Assembly: GCA_027065555.1 (NCBI GenBank)
Contig: JAMONS010000070.1
Location: 1-36,124 of the forward strand
Reading direction: 5' to 3'
Length of the DNA: 36,124 bases
From: Hyphomicrobiales bacterium
GTDB taxonomy: Bacteria; Pseudomonadota; Alphaproteobacteria; Rhizobiales; Devosiaceae
How positions within the stretch are numbered: position 1 is the first letter of the stretch; the number at the start of each line of letters is the position of its first letter. The notes under the pieces were generated by a model. The model searched no databases, was not told the DNA's origin, and saw only the letters and a list, made by a program, of their open reading frames with translations. Below are positions 1-29,297 of the stretch, one piece after another. A program made the position numbers and the translations under genes.

Positions 1-2382
1 TACATTTAGCGGATCAAAACCTAACTTGAGATCATTGCTTAACGCTCTTATAAGAGACGCATCTTTTAGTTTTTCCCCTCGTGGCGCACGAGCCAAAGCA
101 ACAATTAAATCACGCTCCAAATCACCCTTTGGGCTTTGTCCAAAAATATGTAAGCCATCACGAATTTGCGCTTCCTTTAATTCACAAAGATAATTATCAA
201 TTTCACCAAGCGCCTTTTCTTCGTCTTTTGGCAGCGCTAAATCCTTATCAAGATTATTATCCTTAGTGAAATCTAAAATGCGTTTTTTAAGCAGTTCAAT
301 CCGCCTAAAATCCAAACCCTGCGCTTGATAATATTCATCAAGCAACGCCTCAAGATGTTTTAATGGCCCATAGGTTTCTGCCCTAGTTAATGGTGGCACA
401 AGATGATCTATTATTACTGCGCCAGTACGCCTTTTAGCTTGCGTCCCCTCACCGGGGTCATTGACAATAAAGGGGTAAAAATGCGGTACTGCGCCCCAAA
501 GCGCCAATGGATAGCTGCTTACATCAAGGCCAGTGGCCTTACCGGGTAACCATTCTAAATTACCATGTTTACCATTATGAATAAGTGCATTGGCATTAAA
601 AATATGCTTTATCCATAGGTAACAAGCAATATAGATGTGCGGCGGCACAAGGTCAGGATCGTGATAATTTGCCTTTATATCCAAATCATAACCACGTGAG
701 GGTTGCAATAGAATTGCGACATTGCCAAAAATTAGCACAGGCAAATGAAAGCCATTCTGGCGCATAAATATATCGCTCTTTGCCTCGCCCCAGCGTTTAT
801 TTACTGCATTTTGGATTTCTTTTGGCAATTTCTCAAATAGAGCTTGATAGGTTTTTAGTGATAATATTGCGCTACCTGTGCCCCTTTTGGGATTAGCGTT
901 TGTTGGGCCTTTTTGCAATAATTCAATTAGCTGATTGCCGTTTTTAGGTAGCTCTATTTTCTTACCCCCACCCTGCCTGTCGGCATCCCTCCCCGCAAGG
1001 GGGAGGGAAGAAATAGCACAATCATTTTGCACTCCTTCAAATCCCCCTCCCCCTTGCGGGGAGGGGTTAGGGATGGGGGTATGGCATAAAGCGGTGGGGG
1101 TAAGAGAAACTTCTCCACCGCCCAAATCATACCCAGCACCTTCCAACGCCAACAAAATCTCAACGCTAGATTGCGGTGCATCATAACCAACCCCATTAGC
1201 AATACGCCCATCACGAATGGGGTAATTTGCCAGCACCATACAGATTTTACGGTTATTCTCAGCAGCTTTCCTCAAGACAATATAATTTTTGCATAACTCA
1301 ATCACCTGCCCAATGCCCTGCTCATTAGGCGCATAAAGCGATAATTGCACTTGCGTCCTTTTGTGCCAAAAATCTTTTTCCTTATGCCCAACAATCAAAC
1401 AACCAATGCGCCCATCCATTTCTGGTAAAGTTATTTGCATCGCCAAATCTTTAGCGCTCAGCCCCTGCTTACTTTCCTGCCAAATTTTCTTTGAAGCAGA
1501 GCTTTGTAAAAGCTGAACGATTGGCGCATCAATATTGCTAAAAGGGTTTTGCTTTGTTTCGATGCCATCAATATTAAGCGCAAACCCTGTTAGATTTAAT
1601 ATTATTTCAGGAGGAAAGTTCTTTAGCGCCTGCTTCACAAAACGAATACAAGCACCCTCTTTAAGGGTTGAAATAATAATTGGAATTGGCGTGATATCAG
1701 CTTTTTTTAATTCCTTAATTAACAACTCAAGCGTTGCCGTCCCTGCCCCCTCAAGCGCTGCTCGATAAAATAATATAGGTGCAAAATTAGTTGCATTTTT
1801 GCTTAGTGTCTTTAATTGCTCAAACTCAATAATGCCTTTCTGGGGAAGCCAAAAACCAAAGCGAGCAAATGGTTTTATTTCATCTCTCTCTATGTTTTTA
1901 TTGGCAGCCAAAGCACCAAAAGCCTTAAGCGCCAAATCCATATTTTGCGCCCCACCAGTAATAAAAAGCTGTTGCAAATATTTATAATCATCTAACGAAA
2001 TATTTGAATGCTCAAACAATATTGCATCAAAATTAGCGTCCCCCGATAAAAACGCCAGTTTGATATTTTTATTAGCCGCCAAAGCGCAAGTCTCATTGAA
2101 CCCATATTGCCAATAAGCGTTTGAACCAAGCAGACGAATTACAATGATTTTTGCGTGCTGAGCGGTTTTTTCAAGCCAAAGGTCAGTGGAACAATTATGG
2201 CTTAAGCTAGCAAGATTTGCTAAACGCATATCATCAAACCCTACCCTATCGCTTGCGCTGGCTAATGCTGCTAGTTCACTATCGGCAAAGGAAGCAAAAA
2301 TAATATCGCCCTTACTTTGCTCAAGATCAATTATTTCTCCCTCCTGCTGTATTTCAGCTGATGGAGCGCTTAATATATGCAT
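1..2382 (-). CDS. cobN: Cobaltochelatase subunit CobN (N-terminal 794 codons; 3' end outside window)
   Basis: This is the large subunit of the aerobic-pathway cobaltochelatase, which with CobS and CobT inserts cobalt into hydrogenobyrinic acid a,c-diamide at the cost of ATP. The frame is open from ATG 2382 to the left edge, exactly 794 codons; I translated it block by block and saw no stop. The start MHIL, the DLEQ stretch after it and the block HNGKHGNLEWLPGK (residues 602-615) are typical of CobN. Family members are about 1,250-1,280 residues, so roughly a third is missing here. AGGT sits just upstream of the ATG. The gene lies 134 bp downstream of a CbiM-type permease and shares its cobalamin riboswitch, so it is probably repressed when B12 is plentiful. 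Odd point: residues 427-474 are encoded by a GC-rich palindromic insertion. A magnesium-chelatase H homologue is the alternative, but the riboswitch and cobalt permease favour CobN. Confidence 0.93.
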   Translation of the reverse strand, partial: MHILSAPSAEIQQEGEIIDLEQSKGDIIFASFADSELAALASASDRVGFDDMRLANLASLSHNCSTDLWLEKTAQHAKIIVIRLLGSNAYWQYGFNETCALAANKNIKLAFLSGDANFDAILFEHSNISLDDYKYLQQLFITGGAQNMDLALKAFGALAANKNIERDEIKPFARFGFWLPQKGIIEFEQLKTLSKNATNFAPILFYRAALEGAGTATLELLIKELKKADITPIPIIISTLKEGACIRFVKQALKNFPPEIILNLTGFALNIDGIETKQNPFSNIDAPIVQLLQSSASKKIWQESKQGLSAKDLAMQITLPEMDGRIGCLIVGHKEKDFWHKRTQVQLSLYAPNEQGIGQVIELCKNYIVLRKAAENNRKICMVLANYPIRDGRIANGVGYDAPQSSVEILLALEGAGYDLGGGEVSLTPTALCHTPIPNPSPQGGGGFEGVQNDCAISSLPLAGRDADRQGGGKKIELPKNGNQLIELLQKGPTNANPKRGTGSAILSLKTYQALFEKLPKEIQNAVNKRWGEAKSDIFMRQNGFHLPVLIFGNVAILLQPSRGYDLDIKANYHDPDLVPPHIYIACYLWIKHIFNANALIHNGKHGNLEWLPGKATGLDVSSYPLALWGAVPHFYPFIVNDPGEGTQAKRRTGAVIIDHLVPPLTRAETYGPLKHLEALLDEYYQAQGLDFRRIELLKKRILDFTKDNNLDKDLALPKDEEKALGEIDNYLCELKEAQIRDGLHIFGQSPKGDLERDLIVALARAPRGEKLKDASLIRALSNDLKLGFDPLNV
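961..1104. repeat. 144-bp GC-rich palindromic element inserted in frame in cobN
   Basis: The element is bounded by a perfect 11-bp inverted repeat, CTTACCCCCAC at 961-971 and its complement at 1094-1104. Inside lies a second inverted pair of about 21 bp of the type CCCTCCCC-GCAA-GGGGGAGGG, separated by an AT-richer spacer near 1011-1050. It is far richer in G and C than the flanks. Its length is exactly 48 codons and its edges coincide with codon boundaries 427 and 474 of cobN, so the frame stays open. The encoded stretch is rich in Pro, Gly and Ser. Without it, the flanking peptides (YDLGG before, KIELPKNG after) read like an ordinary CobN linker. The 'CCCTCCCC...GGGGAGGG' look resembles palindromes I recall from intergenic regions of many proteobacteria. 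Confidence 0.85.
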
Positions 2383-2516: not shown

Positions 2517-3170
2517 TTATTTTACTCTTAAAGCCTGTGCCATAGTTAGGCTTGAAAGAATATTATTCTTTGAGATTTTATGGGCGAAGCGCAAAACAAA
2601 ATAACTAAATATTGGCTCAAGAAAAATAATCGGCAAATAAGCAATAGCAAAAATTACCCAATTAGCAAAAGGCGTAGGCTCACTGCCAAGCATTAGCCAA
2701 AAGCCAACCATTGCAATAACTCCAGAATAATAAATTGCATCAAATTTAACAATAGAGCTCCATGAAACTTTTACCTGATTATCTTTTTTAAAAAATCTTT
2801 TGCCATAAAGCACATGGGCAGCAATTAACGGAATACCCAGCGAAAGCGTGTTAACTCCCAAATGCAACATATCCGCTGGCTCAAATATTAAAGCCTGTAA
2901 TAATAAGCCAAGCGCAAAACCAAACAGAGTTGGAATAAAACCAAATAATAAAAATATCGCACTAGCACCAATAAAATGTAATTCAGAAGCTCCAATAGGC
3001 ATATTAAAGGCCTGCATAAAACCACTAAAAAACACAGCAGCTAAGGCGGTTTTTATGATTAAATTAGGTTTGGCGATAAGTTTTTTTGAGTTAGTAACTA
3101 ATGTTGCAATTGCGCCAGCATTGGCAAAGGCAAGTTTTGTAGCGGCAATTAAGCCAAGTTCAATATGCAT
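2517..3170 (-). CDS. CbiM-type cobalt permease (ECF transporter substrate-binding membrane component)
   Basis: This is a 217-residue multi-spanning inner-membrane protein of the CbiM family, the substrate-specific component of cobalt/nickel energy-coupling-factor transporters. The start MHIELG keeps the N-terminal Met-His that supplies metal ligands in this family. About six hydrophobic segments follow, and the length fits CbiM. GGAAAA precedes ATG 3170. It is the first gene after a cobalamin riboswitch and is followed by cobN, which supports cobalt rather than nickel as substrate. No CbiN, CbiQ or CbiO gene is visible beside it, so the energising partners are elsewhere or it works alone. It is somewhat divergent, and the exact substrate is inferred from context. 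Confidence 0.8.
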   Translation of the reverse strand: MHIELGLIAATKLAFANAGAIATLVTNSKKLIAKPNLIIKTALAAVFFSGFMQAFNMPIGASELHFIGASAIFLLFGFIPTLFGFALGLLLQALIFEPADMLHLGVNTLSLGIPLIAAHVLYGKRFFKKDNQVKVSWSSIVKFDAIYYSGVIAMVGFWLMLGSEPTPFANWVIFAIAYLPIIFLEPIFSYFVLRFAHKISKNNILSSLTMAQALRVK

Positions 3171-3311
3171 GTTATTTTTCCATTTTTTAAAAAGAGATTA
3201 CATAAAAATTTGCTCCTAAACATAGAGGCAAGTCCAAAATAGAAAAACTAAATATCTGGTATTAACATGACCAACCCTTCCTTTCGTCCCACCGACGATT
3301 GAATAAAAATA

Positions 3312-3525
3312 AATTAGCTGGCAGGTCTCCTGACTTGTAAATCTAAACAAACAAAACTCTATTGCTTGTTTTCGCCCTTCTAACCTTCCCAGAAAAACCA
3401 GTGGTATATTAGAAAAACTCATCACTTACAGTTGCGGGGGCAGTCATGGAATTGAACCCCTTTTGGGTAATTCGCACCATATTCCCTATTACGCTTAAAA
3501 TCATTATGATTCTTAGCACCAACAA
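3312..3525 (-). promoter_or_regulatory. Cobalamin (B12) riboswitch controlling the CbiM-like gene and cobN
   Basis: Read on the minus strand, the region has the hallmark pieces of the AdoCbl/cobalamin aptamer in order. They are GGTGC near 3520, AGGGAA then TGGTGCGAA near 3470-3488, the B12 box CTGCCCCCGCAACTGTAAG (3425-3443), ACCACTGG with TGGGAAGG near 3385-3405, and the 3' block AGTCAGGAGACCTGCC (about 3320-3335). About 140 nt of leader then run to the permease ATG. No strong terminator hairpin with a T-run is obvious, so control may act at translation or through a structure I cannot fold by eye. The rest of the 3171-3656 gap holds this leader and the divergent mutS upstream region; no gene is visible there. 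Confidence 0.93.
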
Positions 3526-3656
3526 AAAATCCTTAGCACGCTAGCAAGGTAATTCAAATAGCAAAATATATTATCTTAAGCAGTTGAATAATTCTATTTT
3601 TGCAATAGTGTTATTATGAAATCCTAATCAACAATAATTGCACCAATAAACACACC

Positions 3657-14069: not shown

Positions 14070-15764
14070 GTGTCCAAAAATAACTTAGTAGAACCAGCCC
14101 GCCCACATGAGGCAGTAAAACCAGCCCGCCAGCGTGAGGCAGTAAAACCAGCCCGCCGGCGTGAGGCAGTAAAAATCGACCCCTCATTTTTTGATGTAGC
14201 AAAGAGCGCCAAAGCATGGCCATTTGTTGAGGCGCAAAGGCTAGTAAATCGTCTTAAGAGAACAGGTGAAAATTCAGCTATTTTTCAAACTGGCTATGGC
14301 CCCTCTGGCTTACCCCATATTGGCACTTTTGGCGAAGTAATGCGCACCACAATGGTACGCACTGCTTTTCGCCTGCTAACCGATGATAAAATACCCACTA
14401 GGCTAATTTGTTTTTCCGACGATATGGACGGCTTAAGAAAAGTGCCACCAAATGTACCAAATCAAGAAATGATGCAAGCCTATCTAAATACACCGCTCTC
14501 ACGTATCCCAGACCCATTCTCTAACGAATATCCTTCATTCGGCGCAGCAAATAATGCACGTCTAATGGCATTCCTTGATGATTATGGTTTTGAATATGAA
14601 TTTATCTCAGCAACCGATTATTATACGTCTGGGCACTTTGATACAGCACTTATGCGAATGTTAGAAAAATATGATGAAGTGATGGATATTATCCTGCCAA
14701 CTTTGGGAGCAGAACGACAAAAAACCTATTCACCATTTTTGCCAGTTTGCCAGCGCACAGGAAAAGTATTGCAAGTACCAATGATTGCCAAAGATATTGA
14801 GAAAGGCACAATCACCTATATTGATCCTGAAACTGGCGATGAAGTTGAAACTAGCGTAAAGGGCGGTGCGGTTAAGTGCCAATGGAAGGCTGATTGGGCG
14901 TTGCGCTGGTTTGCGCTTAATGTAGATTATGAAATGGCTGGCAAGGATTTAATCGAAAGCGTGCGTCTTTCTTCTCGCATTGTAAAAGCGCTTGGCGGCA
15001 CACCTCCAGAGGGTTTTAATTTTGAATTATTCCTTGATGAAGAGGGACAAAAAATCTCTAAATCTAAGGGTAATGGGCTAACTATTGAAAACTGGCTTAA
15101 ATATGCCACCCCTGAAAGCATGGCGCTTTTTATGTTCCAAAAACCAAAAACTGCCAAGCGTCTATATTTTGATATTATTCCAAAAGCGGTTGATGAATAT
15201 TATCAATTTGTCAGCGCATATCATACTCAAGATAAAGCCAAGCAAATTGAAAACCCTGTCTTTCATATTCATTCTGGTGATCCAGGCAAACACGATATGC
15301 CGATAAGTTTTGCGCTTTTGCTTAATTTAGTATCTGCCGCCAATGCGCATGATAAAACAGTGCTTTGGGGCTTTATTTCAAATTATGTAAAAGGAGCAAC
15401 AGCAAAATCTCACCCCGAATTAGATAGGCTTGCAGGCTTTGCTATTGCCTATTTTGAAGATTTTATAAAACCAAATAAAAAATTTCGTGCCCCTAACGAA
15501 AAAGAGCGAACAGCACTTATAGCGCTTAGTGAGGGATTAGAAAAATTGGGTGATGAAAGCGATGCAACAATAATTCAAAGCCTAGTTTTTGAAATAGGTA
15601 AAGAAAATGAATTTGAGCCATTACGTAATTGGTTTAAGGCGCTTTATCAAATTCTATTAGGGCAAGATCAAGGGCCTCGTTTTGGCTCGTTCGTTGCACT
15701 TTATGGCATTGATGAAACCAAAAAATTGATAAAAGACGCACTTGATGGTAAATTAATAGCATGA
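14070..15764 (+). CDS. lysK: Class I lysyl-tRNA synthetase with repeat-bearing N-terminus
   Basis: This is the class I (archaeal-type) LysRS that replaces the usual class II enzyme in many alphaproteobacteria. The HIGH-type motif is PHIGT at residues 82-86 in the block [14 protein letters not shown], and the KMSKS-type motif is KISKS at 328-332. The body matches the family. The frame begins at GTG 14070 with AAAGAAAG upstream, and no ATG occurs before the conserved KAWPF block. Residues 9-35 are three 9-residue repeats (PAR..EAVK) encoded by a 27-bp tandem repeat, and so form an extension most LysRS proteins lack. If translation starts later, at an unusual codon, the repeat would be leader instead. 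The gene is single in this window and presumably essential. Confidence 0.95.
14094..14174 (+). repeat. 27-bp tandem repeat, three copies, at the start of lysK
   Basis: Three adjacent 27-bp units (14094-14120, 14121-14147, 14148-14174) share CCAGCCCGCC at the start and GAGGCAGTAAAA at the end, differing only at a few central positions. They encode [18 protein letters not shown] and PARRREAVK. The tract is much richer in GC than its surroundings. The unit length is divisible by three, so gain or loss of a copy keeps the frame. The encoded segment is Arg/Lys-rich and probably disordered. Confidence 0.93.
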
Positions 15765-17037: not shown

Positions 17038-17345
17038 ACACCATTAAATTAAACTATTGGTGCGCACTTCAAACCATCAGCGAGCTTCAATGCGAGCTGC
17101 GGCCAGCCTTAGCGGCCTAAGCGTAAAAGTGCCGCCGCGCCCCACCAGGCTACGCTCTTCGAGCTTCGGATCGGCAGGTCGGAGCATGCTCATAGGCGGA
17201 TATATAAGGAAGGCGGAGTCGGGCAGCTTTGAGTTGATAAGCATGGAAAAAGAATAACGGCGGAGGTGTCGGGGACGGGAGCGTAAGCGACCAACGGCGA
17301 CAAGAATAAAAGAAGCGAAGCCTGCGAGCGCCGTGAGATAAAAAA
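17038..17345. other. GC-rich non-coding block between nfu and tRNA-Arg
   Basis: This 308-bp stretch has no convincing gene. From about 17057 to 17340 it is much richer in GC than its neighbours. It contains several small inverted repeats, among them GAGCATGCTC (17182-17191) and GGCC flanking AGCCTTAGC near 17101-17117, and a copy of the dispersed roughly 70-nt repeat at 17241-17312. The shared piece GCGGAGTCGGGCAGC (17212-17226) recurs, with one change, at 29150-29164. The block ends directly at the 3' end of tRNA-Arg (minus strand). A 66-codon frame inside it has repeat-like composition and is not a credible gene. Confidence 0.75.
17241..17312 (+). repeat. Dispersed ~70-nt GC-rich repeat, copy A
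   Basis: The unit runs GCATGGAAAAAGAATAACGG, then a GGTGTCGGGG core, then GAGCGTAAGCGACC, then AACGGCGACAAGAATAAAAG. It matches two copies at 29036-29106 and 29228-29297 with only a few changes, and all three have the same orientation. It has no reading frame that all copies share. The A/T-rich ends and GC-rich core give it a recognisable mosaic look. Confidence 0.88.
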
Positions 17346-29035: not shown

Positions 29036-29106
29036 GCATGGGAAAAGAATAACGGCGGGGGTGTCGGGGTCAGGAGCGTAGCGACTAACGGCGACAAGTG
29101 TTAAAG
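29036..29106 (+). repeat. Dispersed ~70-nt GC-rich repeat, copy B
   Basis: It reads GCATGGGAAAAGAATAACGG, GGTGTCGGGG, GAGCGTAGCGACT and AACGGCGACAAG, the same order as copy A (17241-17312) with one base missing in the GCGTAAGCG part. It starts 32 bp after the ubiB stop. Confidence 0.88.
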
Positions 29107-29147: not shown

Positions 29148-29220
29148 AAGCGGGGTCGGGCAGCCTGAGTGGCGTGAACGCAAGAAAGAATGTAGCAACC
29201 AACGGCGACAAGAATAAAAG
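29148..29220 (+). repeat. Degenerate copy D of the dispersed repeat
   Basis: Its right half, AACGGCGACAAGAATAAAAG (29201-29220), is identical to the right end of copy A. The left half is replaced by GCGGGGTCGGGCAGC and a stretch with GAACGCAAGAAAGAATGTAGC. This mosaic suggests rearrangement or decay within the array. Confidence 0.65.
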
Positions 29221-29227
29221 TACGTAA

Positions 29228-29297
29228 GGAAAAAGAATAAACGGCGGGGGTGTCGGGGTCGGGAGCAAAGCGACCAACGGCGACAAGCATAAAAGAG
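29228..29297 (+). repeat. Dispersed ~70-nt GC-rich repeat, copy C
   Basis: It reads GGAAAAAGAATAAACGGCGG, GGTGTCGGGG, GGGAGCAAAGCGACC and AACGGCGACAAGCATAAAAG, matching copies A and B in order and orientation. It ends 8 bp before the dut start codon, so it overlaps the likely ribosome-binding region. Confidence 0.88.

Follow-up and report, generated by a model that had tools for sequence, protein, structure and literature searches.

A palindromic element in frame within cobN and its possible relation to DUF559 nucleases

Closest described systems

Palindromic mobile elements that lie in frame inside protein-coding genes are best known from Rickettsia, and we know of no mobilizer for such elements. 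The Rickettsia palindromic elements (RPEs), in the portions of PMC10969869 drawn on here, are about 150 bp long and palindromic and form several families, some of them in frame in genes. The element described below resembles them in being 144 bp long and palindromic, in occurring at 24 places in its genome and in lying in frame in cobN, and the likeness to RPEs drawn by an earlier sequence-only reading holds as a way of working. It differs in that its family is mainly intergenic in its own genome (G000), in that one gene, CobN, is struck repeatedly across the whole family f1 and in that relatives show its palindromes in association with a nuclease gene; the RPE DNA is expected to be unrelated, and we assign the element to no RPE family.

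Three other systems are informative for comparison. The first is the REP/REPIN group, which shares small tailed palindromes, inverted pairs, many copies and a mostly extragenic location; its Y1 transposase, however, is absent from 15 of the 16 family genomes searched, and here a DUF559 protein occupies the place of RAYT. The second is the homing endonuclease family for which EDxHD is named as the signature in the consulted part of PMC3943268. Its member I-Bth0305I (3r3p) has a related catalytic fold and sequence, and one lineage recurrently occupying one gene site is a further likeness, but here the domain belongs to the CobN reading frame, neither an intron nor an intein being involved, it has palindrome borders and its cleavage activity is putative. 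Finally, the Caulobacter protein VsrA likewise has a DUF559 domain and is Vsr-like; the excerpted text of PMC12907096 treats it as a nuclease of mismatch repair that is linked with a solitary cytosine methyltransferase. The word stem "palindrom" is absent from that paper's text. Repeated segments with a transposase and DUF559 are described as recombination hot spots in Legionella (PMC12308824, in part). A full-text literature search, with most subscription journals outside its scope, found no report of a link between DUF559 and palindromes, and among the titles listed nothing relevant to a cobN with a mobile or in-frame insertion.

The palindromic element in cobN

The window, by which we mean the whole stretch of 36,124 nucleotides analyzed, is contig C70 of the draft genome G000 (2,062,225 bases in 139 contigs, 93% complete). 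It opens with a cobN gene that is cut by the contig end and comprises 794 codons. The features of this gene that concern us are the following.

1–2382, minus strand: cobN, large cobaltochelatase subunit (ORF; translation P0001; Pfam CobN-Mg_chel; solved relatives 9uk9 and 7c6o)
961–1104, minus strand: palindromic element of 144 bp, cobN codons 427–474, two inverted hairpin units with tails, member of a dispersed family
961–972, no strand assigned: terminal inverted repeat CTTACCCCCACC, 12 bp, perfect
1093–1104, no strand assigned: terminal inverted repeat GGTGGGGGTAAG, 12 bp, perfect
987–1007, plus strand: inner hairpin unit 1, CCCTCCCCGCAAGGGGGAGGG, 21-bp arm, 100% complementary to unit 2
1045–1065, minus strand: inner hairpin unit 2, which repeats unit 1 in inverted orientation, 21-bp arm of the inverted repeat
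1105–1122, minus strand: codons 421–426, extra inserted sequence adjoining the element, common to G004 and absent at the empty sites of G001 and G003

The sequence-only reading had placed a 144-bp GC-rich palindrome in frame as codons 427–474, and this is borne out: the element is exactly in phase with cobN, is free of stops across those codons and has a G+C content of 60%, compared with 39% in the window. Its terminal inverted repeats are perfect, as had been stated, but measure 12 rather than 11 bp, and the second, internal inverted repeat that had been proposed is present as the fully complementary 21-bp arms listed above. Both arms are small palindromes in their own right (CCCTCCCC-loop-GGGGAGGG), which makes the element two tailed hairpin units in inverted arrangement. 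Three of the six frames of the element are open, and in random sequence of the same composition a given frame is open 21% of the time; thus the open frame alone is weak evidence.

Folded as RNA with 20-base flanks, the element has a z-score of –6.7, and none of 200 shuffles is equally stable. So stable a hairpin in the message might suggest that the segment is spliced out or passed over, at the level of RNA or of translation (intron, intein or bypassing). But in the ORFs covering this site the insert retains the CobN frame and has no stop, which removal would not need, an Rfam scan at the element gave matches only below the family cut-offs, and Pfam finds no intein domain in it, so that we consider removal exceedingly improbable. 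The reading that we prefer is that the element would be translated as a disordered segment and its peptide kept in the mature protein. In the predicted structure of the window CobN (mean pLDDT 73.5), residues 423–473 have pLDDT below 50 and no secondary structure, and this unstructured segment sits between helices 402–415 and 482–490. Low model confidence is not peculiar to the insert, since nine other stretches of the same model are likewise below 50, and the missing structure in residues 423–473 agrees with a free loop there.

A dispersed family within the genome

The sequence-only reading had supposed that the palindrome belongs to a family, and many further copies were indeed found. A BLAST search of the element against G000 returned 63 pieces with an E cut-off of 10 and, in the 21 stretches fetched around the pieces, 24 distinct places with a cut-off of 0.001. 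Many of these copies consist of a single unit and its tail. Of the 24, the cobN copy alone lies clearly within an identified gene (three other overlapping ORFs were examined with Pfam), so the family is mainly intergenic in G000; in-frame genic insertion, with this one clear case here, is very frequent in the CobN of relatives, CobN being the one gene surveyed there. The nearest full copy (85%; L120, 3938–4076) overlaps the 3′ end of a CbiD-domain ORF and contains its stop, and one unit lies near the start of a glutamine amidotransferase-domain open frame, before the domain and possibly upstream of the true start. The remaining places are outside ORFs of more than 80 codons or in short or uncharacterized ORFs. 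We also note that the CbiD-domain ORF is a second cobalamin gene touched by the palindrome family. On plasmids we found no relative covering 80% of the element; a single unit matches three plasmid records, one from Methylobacterium and two from Aminobacter.

Small tailed palindromes in inverted pairs and in many copies make up a REPIN-like anatomy, and they could be taken for REP/REPIN elements mobilized by RAYT, a Y1 transposase. The corresponding domain, Y1_Tnp (PF01797), was however found in just one of the 16 family genomes searched (G002), with no match in G000, nor in G010, a single-contig genome rich in the element. For this reason the palindromes are not filed here as RAYT-type REPINs, and mobilization by RAYT seems very improbable.

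Insertion in CobN

Alignment of CobN homologs over residues 427–474 indicates that this segment is an insertion, as had been proposed. Two genomes of the same genus, G001 and G003, have empty sites that read GYDIKNLPKNGN and GYDLKKLPKNGN, respectively, where the window has GYDL, 58 residues and PKNGN. Codons 421–426 are also absent from G001 and G003 and are present in G004, so the insertion is longer than the 144-bp element and its edges are placed approximately. A third member of the genus, G002, has a shorter, unrelated insert at the site.

The CobN of G004 is 91% identical to that of the window and holds the element, in reversed orientation, at this very site, with 98 of 144 alignment columns matching the reverse complement versus 80 of 144 in the same sense; over the left flank, the additional inserted codons included, 84 of 96 positions match. 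Judged from the alignment, the reversal could be due either to a flip in place or to replacement by another copy, and both orientations keep the reading frame. In G015, which belongs to another genus, the element occupies the same CobN site in the window's sense. It is unlikely that the element arose as an assembly artifact in G000. Neither a target-site duplication nor a clean excision was seen in the close pairs compared.

Recurrent insertion at one site across the family

CobN stretches fetched from family f1 contain an ORF with an anchor beside the site (site B) in 100 of 102 genomes. For the CobN tree, rows shorter than 850 residues were excluded, the window's own among them, and 92 of the 96 remaining rows could be scored at site B: 34 are empty, 38 contain a C/T-rich palindrome core, 12 contain a DUF559 domain and eight have other inserts. 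With a narrower core pattern, site B and a second loop, site A, are each occupied in 42 of 100 genes; the palindrome core occurs 40 times in 219 kb downstream of site B and 234 times in 389 kb in total. In the ORFs covering site B, the inserts leave the CobN frame intact and introduce no stop. The same CobN loop is thus filled repeatedly within family f1, and we have very little doubt about either the insertion or its recurrence there. A single ancestral insertion inherited by all is disfavored by the mixed states within genera, by the scattered hosts and by non-sister nucleases (below).

Could tolerant CobN loops simply gather any sequence, palindromic repeats included, with no special mobility involved? 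Inserts with such sequences occur in CobN in two loops and at one place upstream, the eight of 92 site B loops with other inserts lack a palindrome core, and the loop is disordered in the predicted model, all of which would fit. But the inserted DNA is a dispersed repeat, and a single nuclease lineage recurs at site B, and we give this explanation only a small chance. Loop tolerance surely contributes, but it does not bring in the repeat, and we prefer to regard the loop as a favored site for a mobile element.

Two minor features of CobN genes in the family may be mentioned. At site A, the G003 cobN (L092) has a different kind of insert, also in frame (RGAQSAGVRQKEGRRSNPESFQQTLPFWIATPLSGVRNNARG), which may come from another repeat family, and the G023 cobN (L110) has one in-frame TAG in its N-terminal part, upstream of site B.

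A DUF559 nuclease domain embedded in CobN

The CobN loop contains an in-frame DUF559 domain in 13 of 101 loci (in G125 the upstream side is cut off by the end of the contig), and all four proteins tried score above the Pfam cut-offs for both CobN and DUF559. Among the loci listed, the embedded domain is accompanied by units of the window's palindrome type. The 13 domains retain all ten residues that are invariant across 54 aligned DUF559 domains, including E59, D61, H65 and D74, which in our reading would correspond to the letters of EDxHD. Their dN/dS is 0.10–0.38 in the 14 pairs listed, with dS above 1 in 13 of the 14. A model of the domain (mean pLDDT 89.6) is nearest to the endonuclease-like 3hrl and to the homing endonuclease I-Bth0305I (3r3p) and matches Vsr (1vsr) more weakly; the DUF559 profile also finds 3r3p by sequence (E = 1.6e-5).

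The 12 DUF559 rows are scattered over the CobN tree, with 11 changes versus 11.5 for shuffled labels. On the DUF559 tree, which is poorly resolved (6 of 91 branches starred), all 13 embedded domains lie on one side of a branch, with one change and an SH-aLRT of 85; in an 18-row tree the support for this branch is 94/93. The CobN proteins of G106 and G128, together with G082, form a supported group, but a sister relation between the G106 and G128 nucleases is rejected (p-AU 0.0002), evidence that is weakened by the long CobN branch of G128. The G092 nuclease, from another genus, is not securely placed within the embedded clade (p-AU 0.245). One nuclease lineage in scattered hosts appears to behave like a homing element, and some of this pattern could also be produced by losses after an earlier insertion.

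DUF559 (PF04480) has no match in G000 (93% complete, as noted), G001, G003, G004 or G015; in G002 a match adjoins a complete palindrome pair. The enzyme is thus missing from the very genome that contains the window element, which counts against DUF559 as the mobilizer. The window element itself must be either non-autonomous or a relic, and in G000 it may be a relic.

DUF559 genes bordered by palindromes

Beyond CobN, DUF559 genes are frequently bordered by GC-rich hairpins. We scored hairpins with a stem of at least 8, a loop of 2–7 and a G+C content of at least 60% within 300 bp of the DUF559 domain. The sample from family f1 comprised the 44 best-scoring of more than 150 matches, one short-flank locus being dropped, and here 41 of 43 loci have a hairpin on any side and 23 on both. 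Other families of the order give 6 of 6 on any side and 4 of 6 on both (two short flanks dropped), and class-wide loci give 25 and 13 of 30, with a few hairpins of another type. By comparison, regions 800–1100 bp out at the same loci give 9 of 74 on any side and none on both. Cold-shock genes, a control that is itself not low, give 10 of 29 on any side and two on both (Fisher p versus these genes, 2e-8 for the family and 2e-4 for the class).

A first, stricter scan (G+C 0.7, loops to 8, domain edges from locus ends), in which 19 of 27 DUF559 loci had hairpins, seven of them on both sides, versus 9 of 162 far windows, was superseded by the present one (G+C 0.6, loops to 7), the G+C threshold having been lowered after some palindromes were seen to be missed; with the stricter GC threshold, 169 of 1483 windows in CobN loci contain hairpins. 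Further DUF559 loci, counted after the seven weakest of 26 new loci were left out, have palindromes in 11 of 11 cases in the order or class and in 8 of 8 cases in other classes of the phylum, one of the latter at 40% G+C. Among named plasmids, hand-picked from 40 records, DUF559 is accompanied by a palindrome in six of eight, the misses being Picosynechococcus and one Azospirillum brasilense. In G246, from another family, the palindrome adjoining the DUF559 gene is matched 17 times across the genome, its own position being counted.

The type of palindrome also follows the phylogeny of the nuclease. With classes assigned by hand from the nearest hairpin (14 of 94 rows unclassed), the DUF559 tree implies 24 changes of palindrome class, against a mean of 45.8 for shuffled labels, and none of 200 shuffles is as low. 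Without the CobN rows the count is again 24, against 40.5 for shuffled labels (lowest of 200, 33).

These observations bear on whether the palindromes are independent, REP-like and moved by some other means, the DUF559 genes being passengers that prefer to land in or beside them. Palindromes are abundant in genomes without a DUF559 match, such as G000 and G004, and insertion sequences located in REPs are already known (from the part of PMC8450116 consulted). Against this explanation, palindrome class tracks the DUF559 phylogeny far better than shuffled labels do, and inverted units often flank the gene closely on both sides, which fits the ends of an element. We consider the passenger explanation unlikely, though it is the strongest of the rivals, and judge it somewhat better than an even bet that DUF559 is the mobilizer of the palindromes.

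We also observed similar neighborhoods at some DUF559 genes: in L267 and L279 the gene lies behind an ORF end reading SMP(V/K)KKHDNIPL, and in L273, L274 and L276, from three genomes, DUF559 precedes a similar gene that looks like one for a VOC-family protein.

A possible route of movement

Overall, the window element is probably a gene-less member, made of two inverted palindrome units, of a mobile palindrome-DUF559 family for which the tolerant CobN loop is a favored site. The DUF559 nuclease would cut or nick DNA at its own palindrome or at a preferred target, and repair would copy the palindrome in, with or without the DUF559 gene. A similar mode of action is proposed for homing endonucleases and for REP/RAYT pairs. 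The CobN loop between helices 402–415 and 482–490 is a recurrent landing site, in which only in-frame products would survive. Loss of the nuclease gene would leave palindrome pairs like the window element, and such pairs may flip or decay.

A broader interpretation can be put forward tentatively, at rather less than even chances: that DUF559 proteins are the mobilizing enzymes of a phylum-wide superfamily of C/T-rich palindromes (about CCYTCYCCC...GGGRGARGG), a second REP-type system in which a Vsr-like nuclease would replace the tyrosine transposase, and that in family f1 one lineage has become an exonic homing element in frame in CobN, without intron or intein, leaving palindrome scars like the window element. 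If DUF559 is the mobilizer, a large class of bacterial palindromes that lack an explanation would gain an enzyme, and a widespread domain of unknown function would gain a role. The one CobN loop, found empty, with palindromes, with a reversed palindrome or with palindromes and a nuclease, provides a natural series on the movement of such elements and on their absorption by a protein.

Other features of the window

A cobalamin riboswitch (RF00174, 99 bits) lies at 3303–3538 on the minus strand and precedes a CbiM-like gene (2517–3170) and cobN. Three 27-nt tandem repeats at 14087–14174 open the ORF at 14070–15764, which has a class I lysyl-tRNA synthetase domain, and would encode nine-residue repeats provided that its GTG start is correct. 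There is also a second GC-rich dispersed repeat, AACGGCGGGGGTGTCGGGGTCGGGAGC...GCGACCAACGGCGACAAG, with several copies in the window (17256–17312, 29051–29106, 29194–29220 and 29240–29295), and sequence resembling it adjoins palindrome copies elsewhere in G000 (flanks of L129, L132 and L134).
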